35,239 nt of DNA, from assembly GCA_030647095.1 (NCBI GenBank), contig JAUSKH010000049.1, positions 1 through 35,239 of the forward strand, written 5' to 3'. This document shows, piece after piece, positions 11,743 to 31,738 of this stretch (positions are counted from its first letter, which is position 1; each line of letters starts with the position of its first letter). The DNA is from Nanobdellota archaeon (GTDB lineage Archaea; Nanobdellota; Nanobdellia; Pacearchaeales; GW2011-AR1). The position numbers and the translations under genes are program-made. Below the pieces are notes generated by a model. That model saw nothing but the letters and a program-made list of their open reading frames with translations. It did not search any database and had not been told where the DNA came from.

Positions 11743-13125
11743 ATGAAAATAGTAATAATAAAGCTTGGCGCAGCAGGAGATGTAATAAGAACTTTACCAA
11801 TAGCAAAAGCCATGAAAGAAAAATACAAAGATGCAGAAATCACTTGGATTACTAAAGACAACATCGCAGATATTCTAAAACCAAGCGAATTTATTGATAA
11901 TGTATACACTTTGCCTTACACTGGCCCACAACAATTTAACTTACTCTACAATTTCGATATTGAAGATGAAGCAACTCAACTAGCACTTATAATTAAAGCA
12001 GATAAGAAATATGGATTTTCCAAAGAAGGGAATTTTCCAGTAGCGTTTAATTTTGGCGCAGAAGAATATCTTAATACTTTTTTTGATGATGAAGTAAAAA
12101 AGGAAAATCAAAAAACCTATCAAGAGTTAATGTTTAATGCAGCAGAATTAACCTATAAAAGAGAACACGTTGGAATTATATTAACTAAAGAAGATCGTGA
12201 ATACGCACTAAAATTCTTTCAGGATAATAAAATTCTAAAATATAATGTTTTAGGTATTCATATGGGTGCTTCTTCCAGATGGCCTTCAAAAGTCTGGCAC
12301 GAATCTAAACTTATTGAGTTCATACAGCAAGCAAATAAAAAAAATTATGAAATAATTATCTTTGGTGGTCCAAATGAAGCATTTAAACATGAAGCTCTTC
12401 TAGAAAAACTAGAACAGAAAAATATTATAGCACACGCAAATAATCCTGACAATACTAATAGGCAATTTGCCTCTCTTATTGAACGCTGTACAGCAATAAT
12501 CTGTTCAGATAGTTTTGCTTTGCATGTGGCTCTAGCTCTCAAAAAACCCACAATAGGCTTATTCTTCTGCACAAGTCCTCATGAAGTTGAAAGCTACGGA
12601 CTATTAAAAAAAGTTGTCTCTCCACTGCTAAAAGATTTCTTTCCAGAACATATGAATGAATATAATGAAGAACTCGTAAAAAGCATTTCTCCACAAGAAG
12701 TTTTAGAAGCACTGGAAGACTCTCTAAAAATAGATACAGTTACAGCAATCATCAAACACCCAACAGAAGAAAAAGTGCTAATCATACAAAGAAGCATTAA
12801 AGATTCAGTTCACAATAATCTCTGGGCATTTCCTGGCGGAAGATGCGAGCAGGGAGAATCTGTCAAGCAAACACTCCAAAGAGAAGTAAAAGAAGAAGTA
12901 GGCTTAGATATAAAATCAATAGGCAAAAAAATTGCAGATTACACCTATCCTATAGAAAAAGGAATATTACTAAGAGGAGCCTCCTATTTTGTCTTCCCAA
13001 CAAGTACAGAAACCGAAGAAGGTCTAGATGTACAAGCACTTCAATGGGTAACTCCTGAAGAACTTAAAAACTATCCCCATATAGATGGAATGGAAGACGA
13101 AATATTAAAGGCGCTTTACAGCTAA
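11743..13125 (+). CDS. GT9 (heptosyltransferase-like) and Nudix hydrolase fusion
   Basis: N-term MKIVIIKLGAAGDVIRTLPIAKAMKEKY and LGIHMGASSRWPSKVWHESKLIEFI...CSDSFALHVALALKKPTIGLFF; C-term Nudix box GGRCEQGESVKQTLQREVKEEVGLDI. Confidence 0.88.
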   Translation: MKIVIIKLGAAGDVIRTLPIAKAMKEKYKDAEITWITKDNIADILKPSEFIDNVYTLPYTGPQQFNLLYNFDIEDEATQLALIIKADKKYGFSKEGNFPVAFNFGAEEYLNTFFDDEVKKENQKTYQELMFNAAELTYKREHVGIILTKEDREYALKFFQDNKILKYNVLGIHMGASSRWPSKVWHESKLIEFIQQANKKNYEIIIFGGPNEAFKHEALLEKLEQKNIIAHANNPDNTNRQFASLIERCTAIICSDSFALHVALALKKPTIGLFFCTSPHEVESYGLLKKVVSPLLKDFFPEHMNEYNEELVKSISPQEVLEALEDSLKIDTVTAIIKHPTEEKVLIIQRSIKDSVHNNLWAFPGGRCEQGESVKQTLQREVKEEVGLDIKSIGKKIADYTYPIEKGILLRGASYFVFPTSTETEEGLDVQALQWVTPEELKNYPHIDGMEDEILKALYS

Positions 13126-13176: not shown

Positions 13177-13737
13177 ATGATATCAGAAGATGCAGAAAAT
13201 CTCAATATTGCTCTAAAAAAAACTCTTGACCTGGAAAAAGATAATCTAGAAAAGATGATTTCTATAGGCCTAGAGTGCTTAAGCTCAGGAGGAAAAATTC
13301 TAGCATGCGGAAACGGAGGTTCTGCTTCACAAGCCCAGCATTTTGCAGCAGAATTAGTTGTAAGATTAAAGAAAAATAGAAAAGCTCTTCCTTCAATAGC
13401 CCTCACAACAGATACTTCTATACTAACAGCCTGTAGCAATGATTATTCTTTTGATAAAATCTTCTCCAGGCAAATTGAAGCTCTTGCCAATGAAAAAGAT
13501 ATACTTCTCTGTCTCAGCACCTCCGGCAATTCCGCTAATGTTGTACAAGCAGCACTAGCTGCAAAAGAAAAAGGTTGTAAAACAGTCTCTTTTACAGGAA
13601 AAAAAGAAAGCGAATTAGAAAAAATTTCAGATGTTACAATAAAAGTACAGGCAGAAGAAACTTCCAGAATACAGGAAATTCATCTTTTTCTTATTCATTT
13701 CTTGGCAGGAGAACTTGAAAAACCCTACAATGAATAA
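13177..13737 (+). CDS. gmhA: SIS-domain phosphosugar isomerase, GmhA-like (sedoheptulose-7-phosphate isomerase)
   Basis: ILACGNGGSASQAQHFAAELVVRLKKNRKALPSIALTTDTSILTACSNDYSFDKIFSRQIEAL; LLCLSTSGNSANVVQA. Confidence 0.88.
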   Translation: MISEDAENLNIALKKTLDLEKDNLEKMISIGLECLSSGGKILACGNGGSASQAQHFAAELVVRLKKNRKALPSIALTTDTSILTACSNDYSFDKIFSRQIEALANEKDILLCLSTSGNSANVVQAALAAKEKGCKTVSFTGKKESELEKISDVTIKVQAEETSRIQEIHLFLIHFLAGELEKPYNE

Positions 13738-15127
13738 TCTAGAGAATATTTTAATGAAATTTAAAGGGAAGAAGATAGTAATTATAGGAGATGTAATGTT
13801 GGACAAATATATTGAAGGCGAAGTCACACGCATAAGCCCAGAAGCCCCTGTTCCAATAGTTAAAGTAGAAAAAGAATTTTACGAAGTAGGTGGAGCAGGC
13901 AATGTAGCAACAAACATTGCTTCTTTAGGTGGTTCAGCATTTTTATTCTCTTTCTTAGGAAACGATGCAGCTGGACAAAAAGTTAAAGAAATACTAAAGT
14001 CAAAATCAGTTTCTTTTCTATTTGACGAATCACAAAGTACAATAGAAAAAACACGAGTTATAGGTAAATCACAACAGTTAATCAGGTTTGACAAAGAAGA
14101 TATTAAACCAAGAGTCTTTAGCAATCTTACTAAAAAAGCAATCTTAGAAAAAGTAAAAGAATCAGGCATAATAATTATTTCAGATTATGCAAAAGGCACA
14201 GTAACACAAGATGTTATGAATTTGCTAGAAGAATACAAATCTAAAATAATAATAGACCCAAGACCTCAAAATAAATCATTATACAAGGGAGTCTTTCTTA
14301 TAACTCCTAATGAAAAAGAATGCTTTGAAATGTCTTCATGTAAAGACGTATTCCAAGGAGGAGATTTACTCCAAAAAGAACTAAGTTCTCATATTCTCGT
14401 TACAAGAGGAGAAAAAGGAATGGCTATATTTGCAGAAAATATAGTTGAAATACCAACATATGCCAAAGAAGTCTACGACGTCACAGGAGCAGGAGATACA
14501 GTAATCGCAGCTCTTTCACTCTCTTTAGCCTCGGGCGCTTCCTTAGAAGAAGGCGCAATACTAGCAAATCACGCTGCAGGTATCGCAGTAGCTAAAAAAG
14601 GAACTTATAATGTTACATTCAAAGAATTAAAGGAAAAAATAACAATAGAAGGAAAAAAAGTCGTAGATCTTGAAGAATTAAAAAGAATAGTTGAAGAACA
14701 AAAAAGAAAAGGGAGAAAAATTGTTTGGACAAACGGTTGTTTTGATATTCTTCATATAGGCCATATAAAATATTTACAGGAAGCTAAAAAGCTCGGAGAT
14801 ATATTAATCGTAGGAATTAATTCAGATGAATCAGTTAAAAAATTAAAAGGTCCAGAAAGACCTCTTCAATCAGAAAAAGAAAGGGCAGAGATTCTCTCTG
14901 CTTTAGATTGTGTAGATTATATCACAATCTTCCCAGATATTACTTCTACTTCTCTACTTGGGGAACTTCAGCCAAATATCTATGTAAAAGGTGCAGATTA
15001 TACCAAAGAATCAATGAATCAAGATGAAAGAAAAGCAATAATGGATTACAATGGCAATATAATCTTCATCCCATTAGTTGAAGGAAAGTCTACATCCAAT
15101 ATAATACAAAAATTAAGATCCGATTGA
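13715..15127 (+). CDS. hldE: HldE/RfaE-like bifunctional heptose kinase / nucleotidyltransferase
   Basis: N-term ribokinase fold (GDVMLDKYIEGEVTRISPEAPVPIVKV, DVTGAGDTVIAALSLSLASG); C-term WTNGCFDILHIGHIKYLQEAKKLGDILIVGINSDESVKKLKG. Confidence 0.93.
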   Translation: MKNPTMNNLENILMKFKGKKIVIIGDVMLDKYIEGEVTRISPEAPVPIVKVEKEFYEVGGAGNVATNIASLGGSAFLFSFLGNDAAGQKVKEILKSKSVSFLFDESQSTIEKTRVIGKSQQLIRFDKEDIKPRVFSNLTKKAILEKVKESGIIIISDYAKGTVTQDVMNLLEEYKSKIIIDPRPQNKSLYKGVFLITPNEKECFEMSSCKDVFQGGDLLQKELSSHILVTRGEKGMAIFAENIVEIPTYAKEVYDVTGAGDTVIAALSLSLASGASLEEGAILANHAAGIAVAKKGTYNVTFKELKEKITIEGKKVVDLEELKRIVEEQKRKGRKIVWTNGCFDILHIGHIKYLQEAKKLGDILIVGINSDESVKKLKGPERPLQSEKERAEILSALDCVDYITIFPDITSTSLLGELQPNIYVKGADYTKESMNQDERKAIMDYNGNIIFIPLVEGKSTSNIIQKLRSD

Positions 15128-15266
15128 TAAAGAGATTGTCTAAATTTGCTATCTCTGCAGCAAGCTATGGAGTATTTCCGCAAATTTTGCTTCGCAACCG
15201 ACAATCTCTAATTGTCAAATTGACAACATAGCAAGCTGTGTGGTATTAACCCAATTTGACAATAAA
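15124..15266 (-). repeat. Two-module palindromic repeat, copy A (inverted relative to B)
   Basis: Reverse complement matches 16900-17042 with about 2 mismatches over 143 bp. Confidence 0.93.
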
Positions 15267-15280
15267 TGAATATACGTTTC

Positions 15281-16789
15281 TTAATATTTTATTTCATATA
15301 TTATAAGAATAGGGTTCTTTTTCTCTGCGTCTGAGAAATATGCTTGAACTGGAGTAACCCTGTTCTGATTATTTTGAACCCATTCTAGAGCTCCTGGAGG
15401 ATTATATTCTAAAGCTGATAGAATTACATATCTTGGAGTTGTATTTTGCAAGAATCCATCAAAACTAGCTTGTGTGGCATAATCTCCTGTTAGATGAGTT
15501 ACGTTAATTTCTGAGTAATATACAGTTTGGGTATAGCCTGCTGACAAGACCCTATCATTTTTATTTGCGTTCTCTTTTAGCCAAATACCAGATAATTTGG
15601 TTGGCATGTAACTATCTTTTTTCGTTTCTATTATGCTATCAAAATGCTTATACTGATAGTATCCACTTAGAGCAAGCAAGACGGCTATTATGAGTATTGC
15701 TAATGGTTTGCTATATTTCTTAGATTTATCGTAAATAAACATCAGGCCTTTTCCTGCTAGTAAGAAAATAAAAGGCATCCAAAGGAAAACCCAGCGATCG
15801 TCTGTATTTCTTATATAAAAGATATAAAATGCTGAGACAAAAGCTAAACTTAAAACACAAAATATGTCTGCGTTTAACCAATGCTTTTTTTCTTTTAATA
15901 GTAAATCAGAGTAGAAGAGGAACTTTAGAGCTAGAATGAGACCAATAAGGAACAATATGAAGACTACACCTTCTGTAAGGAAGTAGTAAAACCTAAAATT
16001 ATACCATCCTATTGCGAACTCCAATGCTGTTCTATCAGGTGTATACCCTCCCCTAAGTGCGAGCACGTCATGGAAAGTAAAGTACGACCAAATGAAGTAA
16101 GGAACCATAGATATTAAAAAAGAAATAGAGAATACATAATTAGCTTTGTTGAAAAAAGCGGAAAGTCTTTCTTTAAGAAATATAAAAACAATAAATATCA
16201 TTGGTACCAAAAGAGCTGAGACCTTAAAGTACACACCTAATGCGACACATAATCCTGAGAGTGCCGGCAAAATCATCTTCTTATTTTCTTCTTTCCAGTA
16301 TTTCCACATGAAGAATACTGCTAGCACTTGAAAGATCATGGAAAAAAAGTCTGGTTGTAGACGTAGAGACCAAAATACAAATGTCCAGCTTATTGAGCTA
16401 AGAAATGCTGCAATAAGTGCTATCTTTTTATCAAACATTTCTTTTCCGAGGAGATAAATTGTAAAACTAAGTATAACAGAAGGTATTATTACTAACAAAA
16501 TCCTCATGGCTGCTTCCTGTAAACCCAACTTAAATGCCAATGCAGCTAGTGCTTGGAAGAGTGGAGGTCTTTGTCCGTTTAAGTTGTAAATTACTCCAAA
16601 AGCCCAATGCTTTGCTGTTGCCATGTATTCTGCTTCGTCCCACCATAATGGCTGGCCCTTGATAGTTGGAAAATAATACATTCGGATTGCAAAAGCTAAA
16701 ATAAGAATTGCTATTAGTGTTGCGTTAGACGGTTCTTTAATCCAATCAAGAACTATTTTTTTTCTCTTTTCTATTTTTTCTTCTGACAT
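15281..16789 (-). CDS. GT39/PMT_2 (ArnT-like) multi-pass glycosyltransferase
   Basis: FAIRMYYFPTIKGQPLWWDEAEYMATAKHWAFGVIYNLNGQRPPLFQALAALAFKLG; many TM segments. Confidence 0.85.
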   Translation of the reverse strand: MSEEKIEKRKKIVLDWIKEPSNATLIAILILAFAIRMYYFPTIKGQPLWWDEAEYMATAKHWAFGVIYNLNGQRPPLFQALAALAFKLGLQEAAMRILLVIIPSVILSFTIYLLGKEMFDKKIALIAAFLSSISWTFVFWSLRLQPDFFSMIFQVLAVFFMWKYWKEENKKMILPALSGLCVALGVYFKVSALLVPMIFIVFIFLKERLSAFFNKANYVFSISFLISMVPYFIWSYFTFHDVLALRGGYTPDRTALEFAIGWYNFRFYYFLTEGVVFILFLIGLILALKFLFYSDLLLKEKKHWLNADIFCVLSLAFVSAFYIFYIRNTDDRWVFLWMPFIFLLAGKGLMFIYDKSKKYSKPLAILIIAVLLALSGYYQYKHFDSIIETKKDSYMPTKLSGIWLKENANKNDRVLSAGYTQTVYYSEINVTHLTGDYATQASFDGFLQNTTPRYVILSALEYNPPGALEWVQNNQNRVTPVQAYFSDAEKKNPILIIYEIKY

Positions 16790-16899
16790 TCATTCAGTGT
16801 AGAATAGAGGGTTTTTATTAGTTTCTAATTTGTGTTAAGTCAAGTTCATAAAGTAACAAATAGTTTAGCAGAATAGTCATTTATCTAAAAATTTCTTTT

Positions 16900-17042
16900 T
16901 TTATTGTCAAATTGGGTTAATACCACACAGCTTGCTATGTTGTCGATTTGACAATTAGAGATTGTCGGTTGCGAAGCAAATTTTGCGGAAATACTCCATA
17001 GCTTGCTGCAGAGATAGCAAATTTAGACAATCTCTTTATCAA
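16900..17042 (+). repeat. Two-module palindromic repeat, copy B
   Basis: TTTATTGTCAAATTGGGTTAATACC...GACAATCTCTTTATCAA; same ends and stem layout as copies A, C and D. Confidence 0.93.
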
Positions 17043-19618: not shown

Positions 19619-20665
19619 TTAAACCTTAAACCCTCTTCGTACAAGACCTATAAGCACCCCTGCACCATAAGTTACATGAATTATAAAGAATATAAATGGT
19701 AATAATACAAGAGCCAATAAAGATTTATGTTTAAAGCTTTCATAAGCAGAGAATACTACATCTAAGGCAAAGTAAGCCAACAAAGGCAACAAAAATAAAC
19801 GGCTAATAAGCAATAAAGTTGGAAGAAATACTAAATACAATAAGAAAAAAGAAGGTACCAGAAAGAAAGGCTTCTTAATTATCCTCCCAACAAAATCAGT
19901 TTGAGGTCTTACTTTACCATAGTCAAATACTTGTTTCGCAAGTCCTTTTAAATTCGCTCTCCTTCTATGATATACAACCATTTCAGGATTATAAGCAATC
20001 TTAAATCCTTTCTTTTTAGCCATATTAATAAAATGCACATCATCCGCAGGATAAAGAGATAAATCAAAATCCAGAACATCAAAAACTTTTTTTCTAACTG
20101 TAAAATTAGCTCCTGTAATATAAGTAGAATTAGCATTCAAATTTAGCACAGACTTACTATATCTTTTCCTAACGTCAAAAGTGCCAAATATATCCTCTAA
20201 AGCATATCCGCTTATTCTTGCAAACCAGGGTTCATCATCTGGACTTAATTGCGGACCGCCAACAATATCTATCTGAGGATGGCTATTAAAAAACTTTTCA
20301 AGATTTTTCAGGAAATCTTTTTCAATAACAGCATCATCATCTAGAAATACAACAATTTCTCCTTTTGACTTTTTTACACCTTGATTTCTATTATCAGGAA
20401 CATTCAAGCCTTTTATAACAATAACCTCAAATTTTCCACTAGGGTAGTCCATATTTTTTATGTGAGTCAGTATCTCTGCACTTCTCCAAGGAGCAAGCGC
20501 AATAACAATAGAAAATTTTTTCTTTATTGCCAAATTGGGTTTAATACCCCGCAGCTTTGCTACGTCGTCCGATTTGGCGATTAGAGATTTCCGTCTTGAA
20601 ACCGAGCGGAATACCCTCTCAGCTTGCTGTGGGGATAGAGAAGGTTTAGGAAATCTCTTTATCAT
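19619..20665 (-). CDS. Glycosyltransferase family 2; annotated N-terminus encoded by repeat copy C
   Basis: IALAPWRSAEILTHIKNMDYPSGKFEVIVIKG; EIVVFLDDDAVIEKDFL; the first ~47 codons (20523-20665) lie in the repeat. Confidence 0.85.
   Translation of the reverse strand: MIKRFPKPSLSPQQAERVFRSVSRRKSLIAKSDDVAKLRGIKPNLAIKKKFSIVIALAPWRSAEILTHIKNMDYPSGKFEVIVIKGLNVPDNRNQGVKKSKGEIVVFLDDDAVIEKDFLKNLEKFFNSHPQIDIVGGPQLSPDDEPWFARISGYALEDIFGTFDVRKRYSKSVLNLNANSTYITGANFTVRKKVFDVLDFDLSLYPADDVHFINMAKKKGFKIAYNPEMVVYHRRRANLKGLAKQVFDYGKVRPQTDFVGRIIKKPFFLVPSFFLLYLVFLPTLLLISRLFLLPLLAYFALDVVFSAYESFKHKSLLALVLLPFIFFIIHVTYGAGVLIGLVRRGFKV
20523..20664 (+). repeat. Two-module palindromic repeat, copy C
   Basis: TTTATTGCCAAATTGGGTTTAATACCCCGCAGC...GGAAATCTCTTTATCA; close to copy D. 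Confidence 0.92.
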
Positions 20666-21450
20666 CTGAATAATTTAACTCCCTGATCATAAACTCTTAT
20701 AAATCTTTTTAGGGGAGAGTGCAATATTCTAAGTCGTACAATAGCAAGGGCCATCCAGGGACCTGCTGTCATGAAATTTATAGTTGAATAAGCCTTATCG
20801 CTCCATTTAGTCGGTATTTCTTTTACTATAAATCCATCCTTTCTAATAGTATATATAAGTTCAACATCAAAAGCCCAGCGCGTCATTTTGATATGAGGGA
20901 TCGCCATCATAAGTACCTCACGCTTAAACAATTTTGCTCCGCATTGAGTATCTCTATAAGGCATAAAAAGAATAGCCCTTATACTAGCATTAAATATTCT
21001 AGAGACAAGAACGCGGGCAAAAGAAGGTTTTGGTTTTACCATAGATCCTTTAATGTACCTACTGGCAATAACTCCCCCACAACTGTTTATATTACTTACA
21101 AGATCATAAAAAGCATCAGGGGTAGTCGACATATCGGCATCAACAAAACCAATCAATTCATTTTTCCTTTTAAGCGCATCCTTAAATCCCTCAAGAACAG
21201 CATATCCCTTTCCACCCTTTACAAGATTAAGATATTTTATTTTTGTAAACTTTTTTTGTATTTTTCTAACTATTTCTTCTGTTCCGTCTTTAGTATTATT
21301 AATAACAACTAGTATTTCATAATCTAATCCTTCTCTCCTAGCAATCTCATCAAAATATTTAGAATATTCTTCCAAAGTATTTTCTATCCTTTTTTCTTCA
21401 TTATATGCAGGAATTATTATAGATAATTTCATTGTGTGGTTATTTTTCAA
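20662..21450 (-). CDS. Dolichyl-phosphate glucose/mannose synthase-like GT2 (ALG5/DPM-like)
   Basis: KLSIIIPAYNEEKRIENTLEEY; GFVDADMSTTPDAFYDLV; YRDTQCGAKLFKREV; RWAFDVELIYTIRKDGFIVKEIPTKWSD; start may be 21432. Confidence 0.85.
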   Translation of the reverse strand: MKNNHTMKLSIIIPAYNEEKRIENTLEEYSKYFDEIARREGLDYEILVVINNTKDGTEEIVRKIQKKFTKIKYLNLVKGGKGYAVLEGFKDALKRKNELIGFVDADMSTTPDAFYDLVSNINSCGGVIASRYIKGSMVKPKPSFARVLVSRIFNASIRAILFMPYRDTQCGAKLFKREVLMMAIPHIKMTRWAFDVELIYTIRKDGFIVKEIPTKWSDKAYSTINFMTAGPWMALAIVRLRILHSPLKRFIRVYDQGVKLFR

Positions 21451-31584: not shown

Positions 31585-31597
31585 ATCTACTTCCTTT

Positions 31598-31738
31598 TTT
31601 ATTGTCAAATTGGGTTTAATACCCCGCAGCTTTGCTGCGTCGTCCGATTTGACAATTAGAGATTTCCGTCCTGAAGCCGAGCGTAATACCCCATCAGCTT
31701 GCTGTGGGGATAGGGAAGGCTTAGGAAATCTCTTTATA
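31598..31738 (+). repeat. Two-module palindromic repeat, copy D
   Basis: TTTATTGTCAAATTGGGTTTAATACCCCGCAGCTTTGCTGCG...GGAAATCTCTTTATA; close to copy C. Confidence 0.92.

Follow-up and report, generated by a model that had tools for sequence, protein, structure and literature searches.

A double-hairpin repeat probably inserted behind the start codon of a glycosyltransferase gene in a Pacearchaeota-type archaeon

The glycosyltransferase gene and its predicted empty site

How a glycosyltransferase gene comes to begin with a dispersed repeat is the question raised by one open reading frame (19619..20665, minus strand) of the 35,239-nt stretch of DNA analysed here (the window). The host is a tiny groundwater archaeon of a Pacearchaeota-type (DPANN) lineage, belonging to the same genus as genome G006, and its draft genome comprises 1.09 Mb in 83 contigs. 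The frame encodes 348 amino acids from an ATG start codon, with the N-terminus MIKRFPKPSLSPQQAERVFRSVSRRKSLIAKSDDVAKLRGIKPNLAIKKKFSIVIALAP; residues ~2-48 are encoded by the repeat and include the peptides FPKPSLSPQQAER and GIKPNLAIK. A preliminary description had recognized this beginning correctly, as 45 codons are repeat-coded and the repeat has 35 matches in the draft genome. It had also attributed the start codon to the repeat and proposed two origins: a mobile element that had become coding, or initiation at the boundary of the repeat from a codon other than ATG.

The attribution of the start codon is wrong. When the copies are laid out with their flanks, the common sequence extends from ATAAAG (once GTAAAG) to AATAAA and the flanks beyond are unrelated. 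The ATG (20663..20665) lies outside the repeat and is absent from the other copies, because the common sequence starts (ATAAAG/TAAAG) one base downstream of it and the preceding bases are unrelated between copies. It overlaps the stop codon TGA of an upstream, element-free family 2 glycosyltransferase (GT2) gene (20662..21450, minus strand, assigned from sequence and Pfam) in the arrangement ATGA, the upstream frame ending at 20662, as expected if the start codon predates the insertion. The layout thereafter is ATG ATAAA, 135 nt of element, GAAAAA. The target ATAAA (20658..20662), read as ATA-AA (Ile-Lys), is followed by the inserted element, copy C (20523..20657), which begins GAGATTTCC, ends AATAAA and amounts to 45 in-frame codons, and then by the old body of the GT2 gene (19619..20522, KKFSIVIALAP...), identified by Pfam PF13641/PF00535 and by orthologues. 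All of these features lie on the minus strand. The product is predicted to be a sugar-transferring enzyme carrying 45 extra amino acids near its N-terminus. Elsewhere in the window, at 11743-13125, one frame joins a glycosyltransferase family 9 domain to a NUDIX domain.

Removal of the 135 nt leaves ATG ATA AAG AAA AAA TTT TCT ATT GTT ATT, or MIKKKFSIVI (MIKKKFSIVIALAP). A first contig scan with the focal glycosyltransferase as query returned no relative; the orthologues in genomes G032 and G001 begin MKFSLVIPLAP and MKTKKITVVVPLG, at the K-F-S-I-V-I position foreseen in the preliminary description, and the gap in the alignment is exactly the element. The refuting observation named there, a repeat-less homologue sharing the repeat residues, was looked for in these orthologues and found in none. 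G032 provides a reciprocal control, since its orthologue of the focal gene is free of the element while the neighbouring GT2, a relative of the upstream gene (48% identical), has one at its own N-terminus. The same comparison holds for alanyl-tRNA synthetase (AlaRS), which in the host reads MKTE, element, IKTREELIKKY; its orthologues begin MEIKTRWELI, MVKIKTRWELI, MTKRIKTRKQLI and MRIKTREELV, so that the start M(x)IKTR in the genus is the predicted empty site. In three AlaRS of the genus (L176, L177 and L178; genomes G005, G008 and G007), the catalytic half has a separate insertion of ~100 residues, absent in other relatives, which reads like a HAD-type domain.

Architecture, reading frames and possible mobilization of the repeat

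The element is a short dispersed palindromic repeat of two tandem hairpins. In the focal copy, hairpin 1 (20584..20657) has the stem GAGATTTCC / GGAAATCTC and hairpin 2 (20526..20581) the stem GCCAAAT / ATTTGGC, both on the minus strand, and inner hairpin motifs of the AGCAAGCTG..GGGGTATT type are present. Among 17 diverse copies, compensatory double changes occur at 9 of the 24 predicted pairs; hairpin 2 is offset between subfamilies in the alignment. Folding energy differs in no clear way between coding and non-coding copies, a search of the window against Rfam gave no match, and a scan of IMG/VR with the element pattern found none. Composite forms (L022, L023, L024 and L026) contain extra hairpins nested between hairpins 1 and 2, which suggests a modular build.

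Many of the 35 matches are full-length, and those of the same subfamily are 91-96% identical over ~140 nt. Another full copy, outside genes at 31598..31737 (minus strand), lies in window 31595-31737, to which copy C is 92% identical. Two further copies in the window belong to an older subfamily (~75% identical): one (15127..15266, plus strand) lies directly behind the stop codon of the gene 13715-15127, and the other (16900..17039, minus strand) is inverted relative to it. Across 15124-17042, these two are 95% complementary over 156 nt and enclose one glycosyltransferase gene of the PMT_2 type (15281-16789), an arrangement like that of a composite element.

Two frames of the own-genome consensus are open, one of them reverse and the other the forward frame ATA AAG AGA TTT CCT. 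The frame xAT AAA GAG ATT TCC TAA (ATAAAGAGATTTCCTAA) reaches a stop within few codons, and xxA TAA stops at once, inside the target. As these two frames quickly stop, copies inside genes keep to a single frame, and the element otherwise lies at gene termini or in intergenic DNA; an in-frame host gene with the element in antisense orientation was not seen. The older subfamilies, represented by the window copies at 15127 and 16900 and by L135, have no open frame, and openness is therefore a property of particular subfamilies.

The dispersal of near-identical copies with different flanks argues for mobility of the element. At nearly all copies the left flank is (A/G)TAAA, although a 5-bp target duplication by another type of transposase has the same appearance. 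A Y1/HUH-type enzyme that works on hairpins in single-stranded DNA might move the element. In the host draft genome no intact Y1 gene was found, only one Y1 remnant, adjoined by a related hairpin. No autonomous element with the same ends was found, though the relatives have many Y1 genes, and the motif adjoined the Y1 gene at none of 15 other Y1 loci examined in them. Y1 transposase remnants adjoin a CCCCGCAGCAAGCTGCGG-type hairpin, similar to the inner one of the element, at L065 1501-1720 (G000:C57) and L072 1501-1527 (G008:C114).

In-frame insertions and the choice of start codon

A covariance-model search of the genus and of 112 genomes of the family located elements in several genera, and the carriers in a pattern scan of named genomes were MAGs of Candidatus Pacearchaeota and Nanoarchaeota, not Rickettsia. 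In four species, 14 in-frame fusions were recognized (10 N-terminal, 1 internal and 3 C-terminal), the element residing in unrelated conserved genes whose reading frames stay intact. The own genome contributes the focal GT2 (N-terminal), the CCA-adding enzyme (L012), AlaRS (L016, N-terminal), a 110-aa frame (L021), a DUF7847-like protein with a 204-nt composite form (L022), the C-terminal case L015 and a short transposase-like frame (L018, C-terminal), which is the weakest case. G006 has a T2SS-type ATPase (L139); G032 has GT2 (L121, N-terminal), a MutS-like protein with an internal element (L130), pyruvate phosphate dikinase (PPDK) with a short form of the element at its C-terminus (L127) and a further frame (L155); G001 has ScpA (L146) and a frame with a hydrophobic stretch (L077). 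The family profile matches of AlaRS, the CCA-adding enzyme, GT2 of G032 and PPDK abut the element, starting right after or ending right before it. Several cases are confined to gene ends, where the element alters the last codons only (...KEIS*, ...KEIA*; e.g., cysteine desulfurase, L014). Against the 14 fusions stands one probably broken gene: at L095 1501-1662 in G006, a copy with a length not divisible by 3 seemingly breaks a HEPN-like gene.

The interpretation that a mobile element has become coding, one of the two origins first proposed, is thus strongly supported, as precisely the residues coded by the repeat are missing from the orthologues, and 13 other genes carry related elements in frame. 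A non-autonomous double-hairpin element has very probably inserted 3' of ATAAA in the focal gene, with the old ATG still in use. The codons behind the glycosyltransferase start would have served as the target (ATG ATA AA/G), the short element of 135 nt would have landed directly 3' of it, and translation from the old ATG would continue through the element, adding 45 residues near the N-terminus. The gene is unbroken because the length of the element is a multiple of 3 and the ATA-AA frame contains no stop. The repeat-coded peptide is probably made. It might be argued that the open frame is accidental, the consensus being open anyway in two frames, or that reads of a high-copy repeat were wrongly joined to the glycosyltransferase gene, given that several contigs of the host draft end inside the repeat. 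Such an explanation is extremely improbable: removing the element yields the N-terminus of the orthologues both in the focal gene and in AlaRS, four genomes that were assembled separately show the fusion pattern, and the focal copy has substitutions of its own.

Another explanation accepts the insertion and places initiation at a TTG close to the element's right end (20531..20533, minus strand), the codon that the preliminary description had rightly noticed in 'PNLAI'. Translation would then begin at TTG GCA ATA AAG AAA AAA, giving a native-like MAIKKKFS..., the element would be untranslated and the frame that opens at the upstream ATG a by-product. The TTG is in frame in all N-terminal copies of the own genome and would yield native-looking N-termini, whereas the copies in G032, which belongs to another genus, have TTA instead, and neither GT2 (L121) nor L155 offers another start within 14 codons after the element. 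Read-through is required by the internal fusion (L130) and by the C-terminal ones L127 and L015. Shine-Dalgarno-like sequences of the AGGAGG type precede the old upstream ATG in L121, L139 and L077. Use of the TTG is, on balance, unlikely. As a general explanation, a non-ATG start at the repeat boundary fails on the copies without a start codon there and is not needed, while for the focal gene alone it could hold. Since the G032 copies have no start there, the internal and C-terminal fusions need read-through and AGGAGG-type sequences precede the upstream ATGs, the ATG is taken, with a high degree of likelihood, as the working start of the focal gene too.

The fusions are concentrated near gene starts: 10 of the 14 lie within ~15 codons of the predicted start, compared with 23 of 242 frame-0 ATAAA sites in 120 predicted genes (binomial P 4e-8, a guide only, as a single genome supplied the base rate and an open frame was what led to the choice of the cases). 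The excess is most simply explained by tolerance of N-terminal extensions, and an insertion bias is a possible cause. The same excess could indicate that the extension is kept as useful, e.g., for binding of a membrane or a partner, the element being a source of functional N-terminal segments. This is very doubtful, as the host proteins are unrelated, the insertions are young, simple tolerance already explains the bias and no sign of selection at the peptide level is seen, the coding copies having too few substitutions for a test. Most likely the extension is close to neutral. The insertions differ from their subfamily consensus at 2-6 positions, and being this young they do not demonstrate long-term tolerance. 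Tentatively, a wider pattern may be proposed, in which the Pacearchaeota element lineage has come to use a target that itself dictates the frame, ATA-AA being read through and the others running into a stop. It would settle just downstream of start codons, those of essential single-copy genes (e.g., AlaRS) included, and repeatedly create N-terminal extensions. If true, this would amount to a natural experiment, still under way, in lengthening proteins by added segments.

Relation to known palindromic elements

Most descriptions of in-frame palindromic insertions come from Rickettsia and Wolbachia, and some from one methanogen. The present elements add a young DPANN case in which the empty sites are clean, the carriers span several genera and the hosts include essential genes (AlaRS, the CCA-adding enzyme). 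They show how a new N-terminal segment can originate in one step, account for odd N-terminal extensions in automatic annotation and allow the cost of such a segment to be tested by setting an enzyme that has it against one that does not. In the literature, covered only in part so that the result is weak evidence, nothing on DPANN and MITE together was found, and Pacearchaeota and palindromic were co-mentioned only in passing, on other subjects.

Several features relate the element to REP/RAYT and IS200/IS605-type systems, namely a build from hairpin units, a short fixed sequence ahead of the insertion and the similar hairpin motif adjoining Y1 transposase remnants in G000 and G008. Unlike in those systems, no intact Y1 gene was found in the host draft, and REPs are mostly extragenic. 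Among the closest known counterparts are the Rickettsia palindromic elements (RPE; Ogata et al. 2000), which measure 105-146 bp with 19 reported in-frame cases (PMC2229807; also PMC10969869); an RPE-bearing guanylate kinase was shown to be enzymatically active (PMC2229807). Like RPE (~105-150 bp), the element is hairpin-forming, dispersed, ORF-bearing and fused in frame to unrelated conserved genes; unlike RPE, it has an archaeal host, a fixed ATAAA on the left and a strong N-terminal bias. RPE have a terminal inverted repeat (PMC2229807, Table 1), whereas the ends of the present element pair with its middle, forming two separate hairpins. The coding palindromic repeats of Methanocaldococcus jannaschii (MJRE; Suyama et al. 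2005) are an archaeal precedent as far as described where they are cited (PMC2229807, PMC2996958); by that description they too are archaeal palindromic repeats within protein genes, in a host of another phylum. In its mode of action the element appears to resemble RPE and the coding palindromes of M. jannaschii, from which it differs in build; it adds a new branch to a phenomenon that is rare but already known.
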